Source of the DNA: an uncultured Desulfovibrionaceae bacterium | GTDB taxonomy: Bacteria; Desulfobacterota; Desulfovibrionia; Desulfovibrionales; Desulfovibrionaceae | Direction of reading: 5' to 3' | NCBI GenBank assembly: GCA_949741925.1 | Contig: CATJOY010000035.1 | Span: 1-64,000, forward strand | Length of the DNA: 64,000 bases | In this document: in pieces, positions 4,170 through 9,891 of the stretch | Position numbering within the stretch: the first letter of the stretch is position 1 | Layout: every line of letters begins with the position of its first letter | Made by a program: the position numbers and the translations under genes | The notes under the pieces: model-generated | What the model saw: the letters and a program-made list of their open reading frames with translations, nothing else | The model's database searches: none | Told to the model about the DNA's origin: nothing

Positions 4170-4283
4170 GGATCGTTTCTCCGGCCGTTTCCTCGGTCCG
4201 GCAAGCGTCCTTCCGCTGCTGTGATCTCCGGGCGAGGCGGGCCTATACATATTCACCTTTCAATACACTTCCGAGGAGGTTCC

Positions 4284-5099
4284 ATGATTTTGCCGACTAT
4301 TCTGACCATTGCCGGTTCCGATTCCGGCGGCGGCGCGGGGATTCAGGCCGACCTGAAAACCTTTACCGTTCTCGGCTGTTACGGTTCTTCCGTCATCTGT
4401 GCCCTGACTGCTCAGAACGGTTTCGGCGTGCGCGGCATCCATGCCCCGGAGTCCTCGTTTACCGCCTTGCAACTGCAGGCCGTTCTTGAGGGATTCCCCG
4501 TGGCCGCCGCAAAAACCGGCATGTTGTTCTCGGCTTCCATTATCGAGACCGTGGCCTGCCACTTGCGGGATAAAGCATTTCCCCTGGTTGTGGACCCGGT
4601 GGCCGTCAGCCAGACCGGCCACGCCTTGCTTGAAGAAAGTGCCGTTGATGCTCTGGTTCGGTTGATGCTCCCGCTGGCGGATCTGCTCACCCCTAACAGG
4701 CCGGAGGCCGAAAAACTCTGTGCCATGGCTATCAATTCCCCCGAGGATATCGCTGTAGCCGGCCGTAAATTGCTGGCTATGGGGGCATCCGCCGTACTCA
4801 TTAAGGGCGGCCACTTTGAGGAATCCGGCTCGGTGATGACCGATTGGCTCTGCTTGCCCGAGGAGGACCCCAAACCTTTGCGCCATGCCCGCATCGATAC
4901 GCCTAACAACCACGGCACCGGCTGCGCTCTCTCCGCCGCTATTGCCTCCTTCCTCGGCAAGGGGCATACCCTGGAGCAGGCCGTAACCAATGCCCAGGCC
5001 TATCTTACCGCCGCCCTGGCCGGTTCTTTCAATCCCGGCGGCGGTACCGGACCGGTTAACTTTTTGGCCGGAGCGCGGGCTATCGGCTCGCTGGAGTAA
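4284..5099 (+). CDS. thiD: Hydroxymethylpyrimidine kinase / HMP-phosphate kinase ThiD
   Basis: ThiD phosphorylates HMP and HMP-phosphate, supplying the pyrimidine half to ThiE. The 271-residue ribokinase-fold protein begins with the typical TIAGSDSGGGAGIQADLKT pattern and carries DPVAVSQTG and the anion-hole/catalytic region GTGCALSAAIA. The start at 4284 follows a good SD (GAGGAGG); the upstream open frame lacks one. It is on the thi strand but 200 bases after thiE, so it may be a weakly coupled last gene. No thiC is present in the window. Confidence 0.94.
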   Translation: MILPTILTIAGSDSGGGAGIQADLKTFTVLGCYGSSVICALTAQNGFGVRGIHAPESSFTALQLQAVLEGFPVAAAKTGMLFSASIIETVACHLRDKAFPLVVDPVAVSQTGHALLEESAVDALVRLMLPLADLLTPNRPEAEKLCAMAINSPEDIAVAGRKLLAMGASAVLIKGGHFEESGSVMTDWLCLPEEDPKPLRHARIDTPNNHGTGCALSAAIASFLGKGHTLEQAVTNAQAYLTAALAGSFNPGGGTGPVNFLAGARAIGSLE

Positions 5100-5417
5100 A
5101 GCAGGATGTGTTGAAGCCAAGATATGAGGGCGGGGCGCTGCCTCGCACCCCGGCAGGGGGATGCTTTCCCCGCTACCCCGGCAAACAGGCCCCATCTGAA
5201 GGAAAAGGCGCTCGTACCGTTCAGTAGAGGCAAGCGTTTTTCGCGGAATAAGGGAAGAGTAACGAGGGCGGTTTCGGCTTTCGTCCCTGCGGGGCACAGG
5301 AATGCGGTTCCTGTGCCCCGTTTTGTTTTCCCGCGAAGAATCTTAGGGGCGTAGGGGGCTTATTCCTCTGGCAGGGGCCGGGCAGCGCCCTGACCGCCGA
5401 GGCATCCGGAAACAAGA
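5100..5417. other. Intergenic gap between thiD and znuB
   Basis: The two genes converge here. Apart from the terminator at 5290-5328 I see no gene or clear repeat in this stretch. Confidence 0.6.
5290..5328 (+). terminator. Intrinsic terminator of the thi operon
   Basis: GGGGCACAGGAA (5291-5302) pairs perfectly with TTCCTGTGCCCC (5308-5319) and is followed by GTTTTGTTTT. It lies 190 bases after thiD and is oriented to end the thi transcript. Confidence 0.85.
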
Positions 5418-6269
5418 TTACAGAGAGGTGCTTGGCTTAGGCCGTAGCTGTCTTTTTCGTATTTTGCAGAGAGCTACTTGGAGGGCGAACCCGGCGCTGG
5501 CGCTGGCAATGATGAGGGCCCCTGAGGAGAGATCGAAGAGCGTTGCCAGTGTCAGCCCCAGCAGGCAGAAGAGAAGGCAGAAGGCTGAAGAAAGCGCCAT
5601 CATGGCCCCCAGACTTCGGGTGAGCGAGCGGGCCATGCACGGGGGGATGGTCAGCAGAGCGATGACCAGGACGAGACCGACGACCTGGAGCAGCATAACC
5701 ACCGCCAGGGCGGTCATGCCGATGAGCAGAAAAAAGTAAGCTCGAACGGGAAGCCCCCGGGCCATGGCAAAGTCTGGATCCAGGGAGAGGGCGATGAGCC
5801 CTTGCCGAAAAAAAAACAGTAAAAGGATGAGCAGCAGGTCAAGCCCGGCCATCAGCATGAGGTTGGCCGGGGGCACAGCCAAAATACTGCCGAAGAGAAA
5901 GCCCGTCAGCTCTCCGGCGTAGCCCGGAGAGAGTTCGATGAGCAGAATGCCAAAGGCCATGCCGCCCGCCCAGAGAATGCCGATGAGGGTATCCGGATCA
6001 CTGTTCAGAGTCGGGTGTTCGCCGCGCGAGGCGATGTGGGCCATGAGCAGGGAAGAAGCCAGGGAAAAACCCAGGGTACAAGGGAGCGGCGGCAGCCGGA
6101 ACATGAAGGCAATGCCGATACCCCCGTATGCCGCGTGGGCGATAGCCCCGGCCAGGTAGGAAAGACGGTTGAGCACCACCAGGCTGCCGATAACGCCGCA
6201 GGCGATGCTGCACAGGAACGCTGCCAGGAGCGCGTGTTGCATAAACGGATATCCGAGATACTCAAGCAT
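5418..6269 (-). CDS. znuB: Metal ABC transporter permease ZnuB-type
   Basis: This is the integral-membrane subunit of an ABC-3 family importer for zinc or manganese. The 283-residue protein has about eight or nine hydrophobic membrane segments with family landmarks near the N-terminus (L-V-V-L-N-R-L-S-Y, A-H-A-A-Y-G-G-I-G-I-A) and a Q-V-V-G-L-V-L-V segment in the second half. Its start overlaps the znuC stop region by 8 bases, and AAAGGA lies just upstream. It is the last gene of znuA-znuC-znuB. Substrate choice between zinc and manganese cannot be settled from this subunit alone. Confidence 0.88.
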   Translation of the reverse strand: MLEYLGYPFMQHALLAAFLCSIACGVIGSLVVLNRLSYLAGAIAHAAYGGIGIAFMFRLPPLPCTLGFSLASSLLMAHIASRGEHPTLNSDPDTLIGILWAGGMAFGILLIELSPGYAGELTGFLFGSILAVPPANLMLMAGLDLLLILLLFFFRQGLIALSLDPDFAMARGLPVRAYFFLLIGMTALAVVMLLQVVGLVLVIALLTIPPCMARSLTRSLGAMMALSSAFCLLFCLLGLTLATLFDLSSGALIIASASAGFALQVALCKIRKRQLRPKPSTSL

Positions 6270-7239
6270 GCGGCATTCCTTTAGGCGCGGAGGTTCCAGG
6301 GAGTGGAGAGGACGGAAAAACCCGGCTATAGGCGCGGGCTGCCGGGCAATCGGCCGAATGTTCCCCTAGAAGCGGAATGATCAGCTTTTTCGGCGTAGTG
6401 TCGGGGGCTCCTCCTGATAGGCCTCTTTCCCGGCATCTATCCGGAGAGACCAGGCTGAGGGTGCGGTTGACAACGGCCACCTTGTTGAAAAAAGGATCAA
6501 CCATGCCCAAATCGTGGCTGACTACGATCATGGTGCATTGCCCGCGCAGGCTATCCAGAAATTCGTAAAAACAGAACCGTCCCTCCGGGTCGATATTGGC
6601 CGTTGGCTCATCCAGCAGGAGAAGAAACGGTTTGGCCGGATCTCGCCCCATCAGGGCCCGGGCTACCAAAAGGCGTTGGCGCTGTCCGCCCGAGAGCGCT
6701 GCCACAGGGCTTGAAGCTCTGTCGCCGATGCCGAGAAGCTCCAAGAGCTCCAGAGCCTGCTTGTGGGCCGTGTTTTTTTCGGACCAGAGTCTGCCTATCC
6801 CCCTAAAGAGGCCTCCCCGCGTGTTGGGTTTTCCCGGGCCGGACCGCGGGCGGGCTGCCCCCATGAGGGTCATTTGCAGCGCGCTGACAGGGAAATCCGG
6901 GCGGATAGTGGAAAACTGGGGCACATAGCCCATACAGCCTTGCGCTTCTGCCGGAGGAAGGCCGAACACCCTGATGCTTCCCGAGGCAGGGCTGAGCAGG
7001 CCTAAGATTAGCCGGAGCAGCGTTGTTTTGCCGCCGCCGTTGGGACCGATCAGAGCTAGAAAATCCCCCTGGTCCACCTCCAGGGTAATGTTCTCGAGAA
7101 CAGCTTCGGCCTGCCGGAAAAAATTGAGATCGGCGAGCGCCACGGCGGCGATCCGGGAAGCCGGATGCGCAGCGCTATCCTCCGCTACGGGAGTGGGGCA
7201 TTGAGGGCCTGGCTGAGCAACGGTCGGGGACATGGTCAA
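6262..7239 (-). CDS. znuC: Metal ABC transporter ATP-binding protein ZnuC-type
   Basis: This ATPase powers the zinc/manganese importer. Walker A GPNGGGKTT is at residues 65-73, the ABC signature LSGGQ at 182-186, and Walker B with the catalytic Glu (LLLLDE) near 206-211. The protein is 325 residues, longer than usual, because of a roughly 30-residue Pro/Ala-rich N-terminus and a C-terminal tail of about 70 residues after the H-loop. It directly abuts znuA and overlaps znuB by 8 bases. The first ATG is used; a second ATG two codons in is equally possible. Confidence 0.9.
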   Translation of the reverse strand: MTMSPTVAQPGPQCPTPVAEDSAAHPASRIAAVALADLNFFRQAEAVLENITLEVDQGDFLALIGPNGGGKTTLLRLILGLLSPASGSIRVFGLPPAEAQGCMGYVPQFSTIRPDFPVSALQMTLMGAARPRSGPGKPNTRGGLFRGIGRLWSEKNTAHKQALELLELLGIGDRASSPVAALSGGQRQRLLVARALMGRDPAKPFLLLLDEPTANIDPEGRFCFYEFLDSLRGQCTMIVVSHDLGMVDPFFNKVAVVNRTLSLVSPDRCRERGLSGGAPDTTPKKLIIPLLGEHSADCPAARAYSRVFPSSPLPGTSAPKGMPHA

Positions 7240-8163
7240 TTACCGCATGGCCGCGGCCAGGGAGCTGGAGATTTTCCAGAGATTGTCCGGCCAGTTTTCG
7301 GCCGTCAGGTCAGCTTCAACAACGACACCGCCAATATTTCGGGCTATAGCTTCGGCGGAGGAACGGTTGGTTCCGGAACTGATCACAAGAGCTTTGATGT
7401 TCCGTTCTCGAGCGAATTTGATCAGCCCGGCCATGCCGCGCGGCCCTGGCTCCTTACCCTGGTATTCGACGCTTGCTTCACGGAGGCCAAAAGCGGCCGC
7501 ATAGTTGCCCCAGGCATGGTGAAAGGTTAGAAACGAACGTTGTTTTGGGGGCAAGGAGGCGAAAAGGGCACTGATGCGTTGTTCCAAGGCGTTGATATCC
7601 GCCAGGAGGGCTTCGGCGTTGGCGGTGAATTCCCGGCGTTTGTCAGGCAGGGCCTCAATCAGGGCATCGCGCATAATGGCGGTCACCGTGGCCATGGCCG
7701 GTGGGGATAACCAAATGTGCGGGTCGGCATGGTGATGCTCGGGGCCTCCTTCAGAGGCATGCCCGCTGTGCCGCGCTTCTCTGCCAAGGCCCGGTATGTC
7801 TACCGGTTCCGCGTGAGGTTGCGCCAGGAGTTCTGCAGGAGGGCTGACAAGGCGCATCTGCGGGGCAAAGGCCGCGAAGCGGGGCAGCCACTGTTCTTCA
7901 AAGGGGAGGCCGATACTGAAATACAGGGCGGCCTTGCTGACGCCGGCCATGAGTGAGGCAGTGGGTTCATAGCTATGGGGATCGCCGCCTTGGGGGATCA
8001 TGACGGTCACGCGCACTGCGTCGCCCGCGATGCGCTCTACAAAGTATTTTTGCGGCATGATGCTGACAGCAACAGGCAGGGGAGAGCCGCCAAGAGCGGG
8101 AGCCGCCGTAGCGAACAGGAAGGCAAACAACGAGAGGATGGAGACTATCCGACGAGAAATCAT
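7240..8163 (-). CDS. znuA: Periplasmic zinc/metal-binding protein ZnuA-type
   Basis: This is the solute-binding protein of the importer. A signal peptide spans roughly residues 1-25. The metal-binding motif DPHSYEP gives H63. A His-rich loop (about residues 132-149, including the triplet H143-H145 and DPHIW) is the feature that separates ZnuA from most manganese-binding relatives. FHHAWGNYA further on holds another expected ligand. It is the first gene of the operon. A promoter and an inverted repeat covering the SD sit immediately upstream, suggesting metal-responsive control. Confidence 0.9.
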   Translation of the reverse strand: MISRRIVSILSLFAFLFATAAPALGGSPLPVAVSIMPQKYFVERIAGDAVRVTVMIPQGGDPHSYEPTASLMAGVSKAALYFSIGLPFEEQWLPRFAAFAPQMRLVSPPAELLAQPHAEPVDIPGLGREARHSGHASEGGPEHHHADPHIWLSPPAMATVTAIMRDALIEALPDKRREFTANAEALLADINALEQRISALFASLPPKQRSFLTFHHAWGNYAAAFGLREASVEYQGKEPGPRGMAGLIKFARERNIKALVISSGTNRSSAEAIARNIGGVVVEADLTAENWPDNLWKISSSLAAAMR

Positions 8164-8167
8164 AAAA

Positions 8168-8194
8168 ACACCTTGAGCAACATGATCAAGGTGT
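8168..8194 (-). promoter_or_regulatory. Palindrome over the znuA leader and Shine-Dalgarno
   Basis: ACACCTTGA and TCAAGGTGT are perfect 9-base inverted arms around a 9-base centre, ending five bases before the znuA ATG. In the mRNA the downstream arm contains the SD (AAGGTG), and a run of five U follows the hairpin. It may be a Zur/Fur-type operator, an SD-sequestering hairpin, or both. No regulator gene lies nearby. Confidence 0.6.
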
Positions 8195-8195
8195 A

Positions 8196-8224
8196 TCTAT
8201 ATACCCCATCCTGTGGGGCGACAA
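8196..8224 (-). promoter_or_regulatory. Sigma-70 promoter of znuACB
   Basis: Reading the minus strand, TTGTCG (8219-8224) is followed after 17 bases by TATAGA (8196-8201). Transcription would start at the edge of, or inside, the palindrome at 8168-8194. Confidence 0.6.
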
Positions 8225-8346
8225 GGCCTTAGAACTCCCCATAGGGCAAGCAGATAAAAGGAATGTTTCTTACCAGTTTTTTTCCGGCTTCCTTTCCGGG
8301 AGGAATTTTTTGGCGTTTTGCGGAGGCGGTGGGTTGAAAACAGCTC

Positions 8347-8853
8347 TTAGCCGCCACAATACCGTCGTGTGACCGGCGTACGCTTAGGCCATTTGACGCT
8401 ATTCAGGAGGGCAATGCCCAGACGGCTCACACTGCCTGCGGGCACGCAGAGCACGAACCGGCCGGGCCAAGGGGAGGAGTGCACGGTTTCGCTGTAAGGC
8501 TCGGTGTTCCGGACAATATGGAAGATGACGCCTTCCCTGTTGATAAACACCATATCCAAAGGGAAGGGGACATTTTTCATCCACATGGACATGACGGTGT
8601 CTTCTTCAAAGTCGAAGAGCATACCATGGTTCTCAGCAATGTCCTCTCGGTAGGCCAGACCGCGCAGGCGCTGGTTGAGAGATTCCGCAATTTCAACAGA
8701 GAATACGGCCGGCGGACCGGATTGTCTGATAATTTTCAGGATGCCGGTTCTGAAATCCGAAGCCGAGGCCGGGGAACAGAGGCAAACAAGAAGAACCATG
8801 GCCGCCGGAATTATGCGTTGCCAAAACAGGCCGGAGGAAGCCGGATAATACAT
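8347..8853 (-). CDS. Exported DUF192 family protein
   Basis: This 168-residue protein has an N-terminal signal peptide (about residues 1-32, ending in PASASD) and then a DUF192 domain. Family marks are RLRGLAYRE, GMLFDF, MWMKN and PFPLDMVFI. DUF192 proteins are small periplasmic or secreted proteins of unknown biochemical role. It lies 22 bases after cheZ on the same strand and could be co-transcribed with it. The first ATG lacks a strong SD. Confidence 0.82.
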   Translation of the reverse strand: MYYPASSGLFWQRIIPAAMVLLVCLCSPASASDFRTGILKIIRQSGPPAVFSVEIAESLNQRLRGLAYREDIAENHGMLFDFEEDTVMSMWMKNVPFPLDMVFINREGVIFHIVRNTEPYSETVHSSPWPGRFVLCVPAGSVSRLGIALLNSVKWPKRTPVTRRYCGG

Positions 8854-8875: not shown

Positions 8876-9634
8876 TTACAAGCCCAGGTCGGCCAACAGG
8901 CTATCTACATCGGCTTGGGATGTGCCTTCACAGGGTCCCTTGAGTTCAGACCCTCTGATTTCCTTGATTTCCTTGAGTTTATCCTGGCTTTCCCGGGCAA
9001 TATCTTCAAGGGCTTTGTCAGGCTGCTCTTCCCTGGATTTAATCATCAGTCCGCTGGAAACATACATTTCAAAGATAGATTCCTGGATATCGCTAAGGGC
9101 CTTGACCACTTTTTTCAGACGCTGGCCGGTCAGATCCTGAAAACTGAGCGTGGTCATGATGGAGGTCATGGCTTCTTCCATAGCCAGGCGGTGGTTTTCC
9201 AGGCGTTCGGTGGCGTTGTGCGGGGCGCTGGCCCGAAGAGAGAGCAGTAGTTGGCTGACATCCTGAAGCCGTTCCAGAATGCCTTCGACAGCAGCCATAA
9301 TGGATTCCGTGGCTTCAAAGGTGGTATTCATCACGGCTTCGAGCTGTTCCGAGGCTTCGGAAAAGAGTTTGCCGGTTTTCTCTGCGGAATCGGGCGGAGT
9401 TCCTTCCGTGGGCTCGCTGGCGGCGGTGATTTCCTTATAAATATTCTGCAAGCCACGGCGCATTTCCGTATTCAAGTGCCGGTAGAATTCGTTTTCCACC
9501 AGGGCCGTATGCATCGTTTCTGAAAGAGAATCTTTTACCGCATCCATGACCGCGCCTTTTATGGAATCGGCCACCTGGGAGGCCACGGTTTCCATGACCC
9601 GGTTGAGAATGTCTTCATGGGAAAGTGTCGCCAT
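8876..9634 (-). CDS. cheZ: Chemotaxis protein phosphatase CheZ
   Basis: CheZ dephosphorylates phospho-CheY at the flagellar or chemoreceptor cluster. The protein is largely helical. It contains the catalytic helix SFQDLTGQRLKK with D167 and Q171, matching the D/Q pair of the E. coli enzyme. It ends in the CheY-binding tail QADVDSLLADLGL, very like the E. coli C-terminus. A GTG at 9646 could extend it by four codons. The ATG at 9634 is preferred because GAGGTG lies at the right distance. No other che or flagellar genes are in the window, so it is an isolated chemotaxis gene. Confidence 0.88.
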   Translation of the reverse strand: MATLSHEDILNRVMETVASQVADSIKGAVMDAVKDSLSETMHTALVENEFYRHLNTEMRRGLQNIYKEITAASEPTEGTPPDSAEKTGKLFSEASEQLEAVMNTTFEATESIMAAVEGILERLQDVSQLLLSLRASAPHNATERLENHRLAMEEAMTSIMTTLSFQDLTGQRLKKVVKALSDIQESIFEMYVSSGLMIKSREEQPDKALEDIARESQDKLKEIKEIRGSELKGPCEGTSQADVDSLLADLGL

Positions 9635-9891
9635 TTGCTGATACACCTCTGAAATAATTATTGGATATGCAAAAGGATGCCCTCAGGCCGCGGTAATGCC
9701 GTAAAGAACCCAAGGAAAGCGTTGCGCGGCGCCGGGATCTGTCTGCAGGAAAACTATCCTTTTCCCCTGGCCGCATCTGCCGGAAAAAATAGATCTCGAC
9801 CTAGAGCCCACAACGCCTTCCCCCGCTTTTTTTCACTTCCCTACCGGAGAGAACCATTTTTACGCGGATATACTCTTTTTCAGCACAGCCC

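Follow-up and report, generated by a model that had tools for sequence, protein, structure and literature searches.

An inverted repeat over the Shine-Dalgarno sequence of znuA in a Desulfovibrionaceae genome: a possible hairpin against read-through RNA

Hairpins that hide a Shine-Dalgarno (SD) sequence, intrinsic terminators and the silencing of read-through RNA are known kinds of control in bacteria. For the transposase genes of IS10 and IS50, read-through silencing is mediated by a hairpin which is formed only in RNA coming from outside the element; the start point of the element's own transcript lies within the first arm of this hairpin. In the pyrC leader of E. coli and Salmonella, a short hairpin at the 5' end covers the SD sequence. 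Whether it is formed depends on the exact start point, a displacement by a few bases being enough. This leader hairpin was reportedly described by Wilson in 1992 and by Sorensen in 1993, both listed among the references of PMC5730371.

For zinc uptake, the accessible part of an earlier study predicts a Zur box, ATGCAACNNNGTTGCAT, for two Desulfovibrio genomes (PMC545781). On SD hairpins at znuA or in zinc uptake, our search of the literature returned nothing beyond a general review.

The znuA leader and its inverted repeat

Here, a znu operon of an uncultured Desulfovibrionaceae bacterium is described, which is located in the first 64,000 nucleotides of contig CATJOY010000035.1 (assembly GCA_949741925.1), in the following called the window. 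The features of the locus are listed in Table 1.

Table 1. Features of the znu locus in the window.
Feature	Position	Strand	Basis
First (5') arm of the inverted repeat in znuA sense, ACACCTTGA	8186..8194	-	sequence and inverted-repeat listing
Spacer or loop of the repeat, 9 nt, TCATGTTGC	8177..8185	-	
Second (3') arm of the repeat, TCAAGGTGT, with SD-like AAGG, followed by TTTT	8168..8176	-	
Putative weak sigma-70-like promoter, TTGTCG-N17-TATAGA; predicted start ~8189-8187, in the first arm	8196..8224	-	
znuA, periplasmic zinc-binding protein of the ABC transporter	7240..8163	-	PF01297, E 1.7e-57
ATPase, znuC-type (longest ORF)	6262..7239	-	PF00005, E 8.8e-26
Permease, znuB-type	5418..6269	-	PF00950, E 3.1e-63
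DUF192 gene, upstream of znuA, co-directional	8347..8853	-	PF02643, E 1.1e-27

Upstream of znuA, a perfect inverted repeat with arms of 9 bp is present. It had been noticed in a preliminary description of this DNA, and both arms are indeed exact in the sequence. Read on the minus strand, the leader has the order ...TATATAGAT ACACCTTGA TCATGTTGC TCAAGGTGT TTTT ATG. The distance between the repeat and the start codon (8163-8161) is only 4 nt, and the SD-like AAGG (8174-8171), which lies 7 nt from the ATG, is located inside the 3' arm. If mismatches are allowed, the symmetry reaches arms of 18 nt at 83%, and the repeat ranks third among the inverted repeats listed for the window.

A frame of seven codons, MLLKVFL (8160-8183, minus strand), starts in the loop and overlaps with its stop the start of znuA (ATGA). 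It possibly encodes a leader peptide, a candidate without a visible SD of its own.

The DUF192 gene is separated from znuA by 183 nt and represents a possible source of RNA reading through into znuA. In the nearest relative (L133), a homologue of 8876-9646 is found directly before znuA, with no DUF192 gene in between. Two further hairpins were observed in the surroundings. One, terminator-like on the plus strand (8277-8311), has T runs on both sides, and the flanking genes that were identified are on the minus strand. The other is a strong inverted repeat at 5288-5320, with up to 15 pairs and a T-rich tail (plus strand), between znuB and a plus strand ORF ending at 5099; this is likely a terminator shared by that ORF and znuB.

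Folding of the leader, start point and read-through

The reading which we prefer, at a probability of about 0.35, is that the repeat acts as an RNA hairpin silencing or ending read-through RNA, and that the own transcript of znuA starts inside the first arm. In messages originating from the DUF192 gene or from an upstream promoter, the 9-bp hairpin with its short U tail would cover the SD of znuA; such read-through RNA would partly be terminated and would not be translated into ZnuA. The own transcript, starting at about 8189 inside the first arm, would be unable to form the hairpin and would leave the SD open, and znuA would thereby depend on its own promoter instead of on its neighbor. Within this model we infer the start point, the read-through, the termination and any effect of the hairpin on expression.

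The predicted folding depends on the 5' end of the RNA. RNAs with different 5' ends were folded, eleven with ends from 8600 to 8194 and further ones with ends down to 8188. For all eleven, the stem was predicted at 0.97-0.99 and the SD was unpaired at 0.00. With 5' ends at 8193-8191 the hairpin was still closed and the SD paired, at 8190 it was half formed, and at 8189 and 8188 it was gone, leaving the SD unpaired at 0.84-0.85. Opening of 8174-8159, which costs about 14.5 kcal/mol in the longer RNAs, requires 4.6 kcal/mol once the 5' end has moved to 8189. In the transcripts starting at 8189 and 8188, the start codon itself is predicted to be mostly paired, at an unpaired probability of 0.03-0.04, its partner being the former loop. 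The repeat had been proposed to hide the SD in RNA. This is borne out for RNAs beginning at about 8191 or further upstream, the only ones for which the predicted mRNA fold contains an SD-occluding leader hairpin, and does not hold for the predicted start at 8189.

In long RNAs the hairpin has an energy of about -12 kcal/mol, and the energy of the 35-nt hairpin lies 4.5 sd below that of shuffles. With 150 nt of upstream context, opening of the SD region requires 14.6 kcal/mol, which is the third highest value among 55 gene starts in the window (median 7.8), as collected by a crude ORF picker. This value exceeds those of the znuA starts of all 60 relatives (maximum 14.2, median 6.85). If folding is restricted to 35 nt ending at the start codon, znuA is fourth of the 55, and one relative (L170) is tighter than the znuA of the window. 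Of the two starts that rank higher than znuA with the longer context, one (5297) is that of an ORF which runs antisense to the plus strand ORF 4221-5099 and is probably no real gene.

The start point itself was predicted from the promoter. The -35 (8224-8219) and -10 (8201-8196) elements, 17 nt apart, share 8 of 12 bases with the consensus and represent the best-scoring promoter in the gap between the DUF192 gene and znuA, predicting a start at 8189. A good -35/-10 pair, as suggested in the preliminary description, is not present. Scanning at a threshold of 9/12 revealed no promoter at the znuA leader, and when 400 segments of 184 nt were taken at random from the window, 33.5% of them reached the base-weighted score as well. 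According to the accessible part of a published study, start points are preferred at 7 over 8 over 9 nt after the -10, with A at least equal to G, followed by T and, far behind, C (PMC2613000). Applied to this -10, these preferences point to T8189, T8188 or G8187.

Since these positions lie inside the first arm, the transcript of this promoter would not fold the hairpin, and hairpin-containing RNA would have to come from further upstream. Due to this, the two layers of control that had been suggested for this one segment would never act on the same RNA. Within the spacer between -35 and -10, a place where MerR-type regulators bind, an inverted repeat CCCCA-N5-TGGGG (8204-8218) was observed.

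The repeat at znuA also has a terminator-like character. No other hairpin on the minus strand in 8360-8100, a region covering the DUF192 stop to znuA, is followed by a T-rich tail. With loops of up to 12 nt allowed, it displays the hairpin and the U run of an intrinsic terminator (9 pairs, 4 of them G-C, tail TTTTATGA); a standard terminator scan missed it because the loop exceeds the limit of 8 used there. With so few G-C pairs in the stem and with this tail, termination is expected to be weak. The nearest relative, whose ZnuA is 49% identical, carries a GC-rich terminator-like hairpin followed by five T between the upstream gene and znuA. This hairpin at the same junction makes an insulation of znuA plausible in both genomes.

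The weak promoter, the weak tail, the paired start codon in the 8189 RNA, the missing conservation of the repeat and the chance expectation given below all speak against the read-through reading.

Alternative readings and conservation of the repeat

The repeat may instead be a DNA operator, bound by a putative repressor other than Zur that would cover the start point of znuA. We consider this possible, if rather doubtful. Its location just downstream of the -10 as well as the extended symmetry would fit, and three ArsR-type domains are encoded in the genome. Since a Zur clade protein is missing in this genome (see below), another regulator would be needed. Nevertheless, none of 15 consensus motifs tested at the repeat fits convincingly, the lowest shuffle counts being 22/200 (Fur) and 39/200 (MntR). 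Furthermore, throughout the genome, exact arms with a spacer of 5-13 occur only in the repeat itself, no second copy within two mismatches was found and the sole site with three mismatches sits in an open frame. As further sites at promoters are lacking, there is no sign of a regulon or of a repressor gene under its own control. The preliminary description had looked to copies of the motif at other metal genes as the mark of a metal-responsive operator; there are none at those of this genome, which counts against the operator proposed there.

Within the family, the exact 8-base arm pair CACCTTGA/TCAAGGTG is present in 13 of 288 genomes, the one of the window included. In 9 of the 12 others it belongs to one common 24-base stretch with an 8-nt spacer and one or two spacer base variants, which reads HLELWVKV in one strand and which we take to be Era-like; the remaining three sites are likewise in open frames. 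Comparison of the coordinates across the 288 family genomes revealed that in none of the 12 others the arm pair lies at the genome's own znuA match. A search on the level of the order with a narrower spacer gave matches in 12 of 348 genomes (the 288 among them), none of which is outside the family. This absence in relatives argues against a conserved operator. A search of a contig collection detected only distant relatives (best 35-36% identity). The nearest ZnuA, with its 49% identity, has a leader unrelated to that of the window. Therefore, footprinting is not possible, and the absence of the repeat elsewhere says little about its function here.

A repeat that arose by chance and has no function is an explanation we likewise regard as possible and rather doubtful. 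Perfect inverted repeats of this kind (arms of at least 9, loops of 3-12) number 8 in the window versus 4-7 in six dinucleotide shuffles and are thus ordinary in number, and the lack of conservation would also be expected. On the other hand, the arms are AT-rich, the SD occlusion is top-ranked among 61 znuA starts, and among the 55 crude gene starts that of znuA alone has an arm of 9 bp in the 45 nt preceding it, where about 0.2 would be expected by our own arithmetic. The placement at a gene start is thus mildly beyond chance.

It appears improbable that the hairpin acts as a general translational damper or as a signal-responsive RNA switch, with the main znuA mRNA starting upstream of 8194. 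Its stability in long RNAs would suit such a role, but the start predicted for the best promoter lies within the first arm, a second domain that could bind a ligand is not visible and no model of Rfam 15 matches at its gathering score, the only matches being two microRNA models below threshold. Very improbable is a switch as in pyrC operating in this Zur-less lineage, whereby starts at C8191/C8190 would hide the SD and starts at T8189 to G8187 would open it, switching the translation of znuA; the predicted folds would allow for this.

Zinc repressor sites and comparison with known systems

In other members of the family, the palindrome ATGCAAC-N3-GTTGCAT upstream of znuA and a Zur-like gene within the adjacent 4 kb co-occur. 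Of 60 znuA loci, which were chosen and not drawn at random out of those 143 of the 288 family genomes in which ZnuA is matched at E <= 1e-30, 29 have both and 28 have neither; two have zur only and one has the box only (counted set within L116-L175, loci L110-L115 being left out). Here, L137, scored as zur only, does carry the box (14/14), L175 is the box without adjacent zur, and L132 was counted as zur on a marginal match (E 8.5e-4). This palindrome is a re-finding of the Zur box given in the accessible part of PMC545781.

The locus of the window belongs to the group with neither. Its best match to the Zur box is 7 of 14 bases, which is reached by 200/200 shuffles, and a search for zur in the genome (98% complete) yielded two Fur-family proteins only, neither of the Zur clade. 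In a tree, all 30 Zur proteins form a clade of their own (support 0.996), with both of these proteins outside. For one of them, the closest protein is the nearest relative's Fur; the other is best matched by PerR models, below their curated cut-offs. With respect to a Fur operator (GATAATGATNATCATTATC-like), the best match at the repeat is 11/18, equalled by 22/200 shuffles. These values indicate that the repeat is no Zur box and does not come close to a Fur box; the zinc-repressor site usual in the family is a different one. The Zur or Fur operator suggested earlier is therefore hardly tenable, although znuA serves zinc uptake, the genome encodes a Fur-like protein and a partial Fur-box match exists, since the Zur box of the relatives is different and absent here, no Zur-clade protein is present and the Fur match is shuffle-like.

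Further candidates were compared with the repeat. For NikR, HcpR, ModE, CooA, LysX, HrcA, PerR and the Gram-positive Zur, with consensus motifs as given in the accessible part of PMC545781, none was above shuffles, and among the consensus motifs of DtxR, MntR, AdcR, SmtB and FNR none stood out against them. The search for DtxR-type regulators in the genome gave one sub-threshold match only.

If the read-through reading is true, the operon ignores the transcription of its neighbor by means of a start point placed inside the arm of an SD-covering hairpin. This draws attention to the znu operons of the family without Zur box and adjacent zur (28 of the 60 loci). The same gap was noted in 2004 for other delta-proteobacteria, according to the accessible part of that study (PMC545781).

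Like the Desulfovibrio Zur box, the repeat is a palindrome upstream of znuABC; in contrast to it, sequence, spacing and place differ, and both the box and a zur gene are missing here. With pyrC, the locus would share a short 5' hairpin over the SD, the formation of which is set by a start shift of a few bases. However, for pyrC the start has been mapped and is chosen according to nucleotide pools, whereas the znuA start is only predicted. As for IS10 and IS50, the hairpin would be limited to RNA from outside and the own start would lie inside the first arm, but here a chromosomal transport operon would be guarded and not a mobile element. The hairpin at znuA would be one more case of these known kinds of control, located at the operon of a Zur-less lineage.
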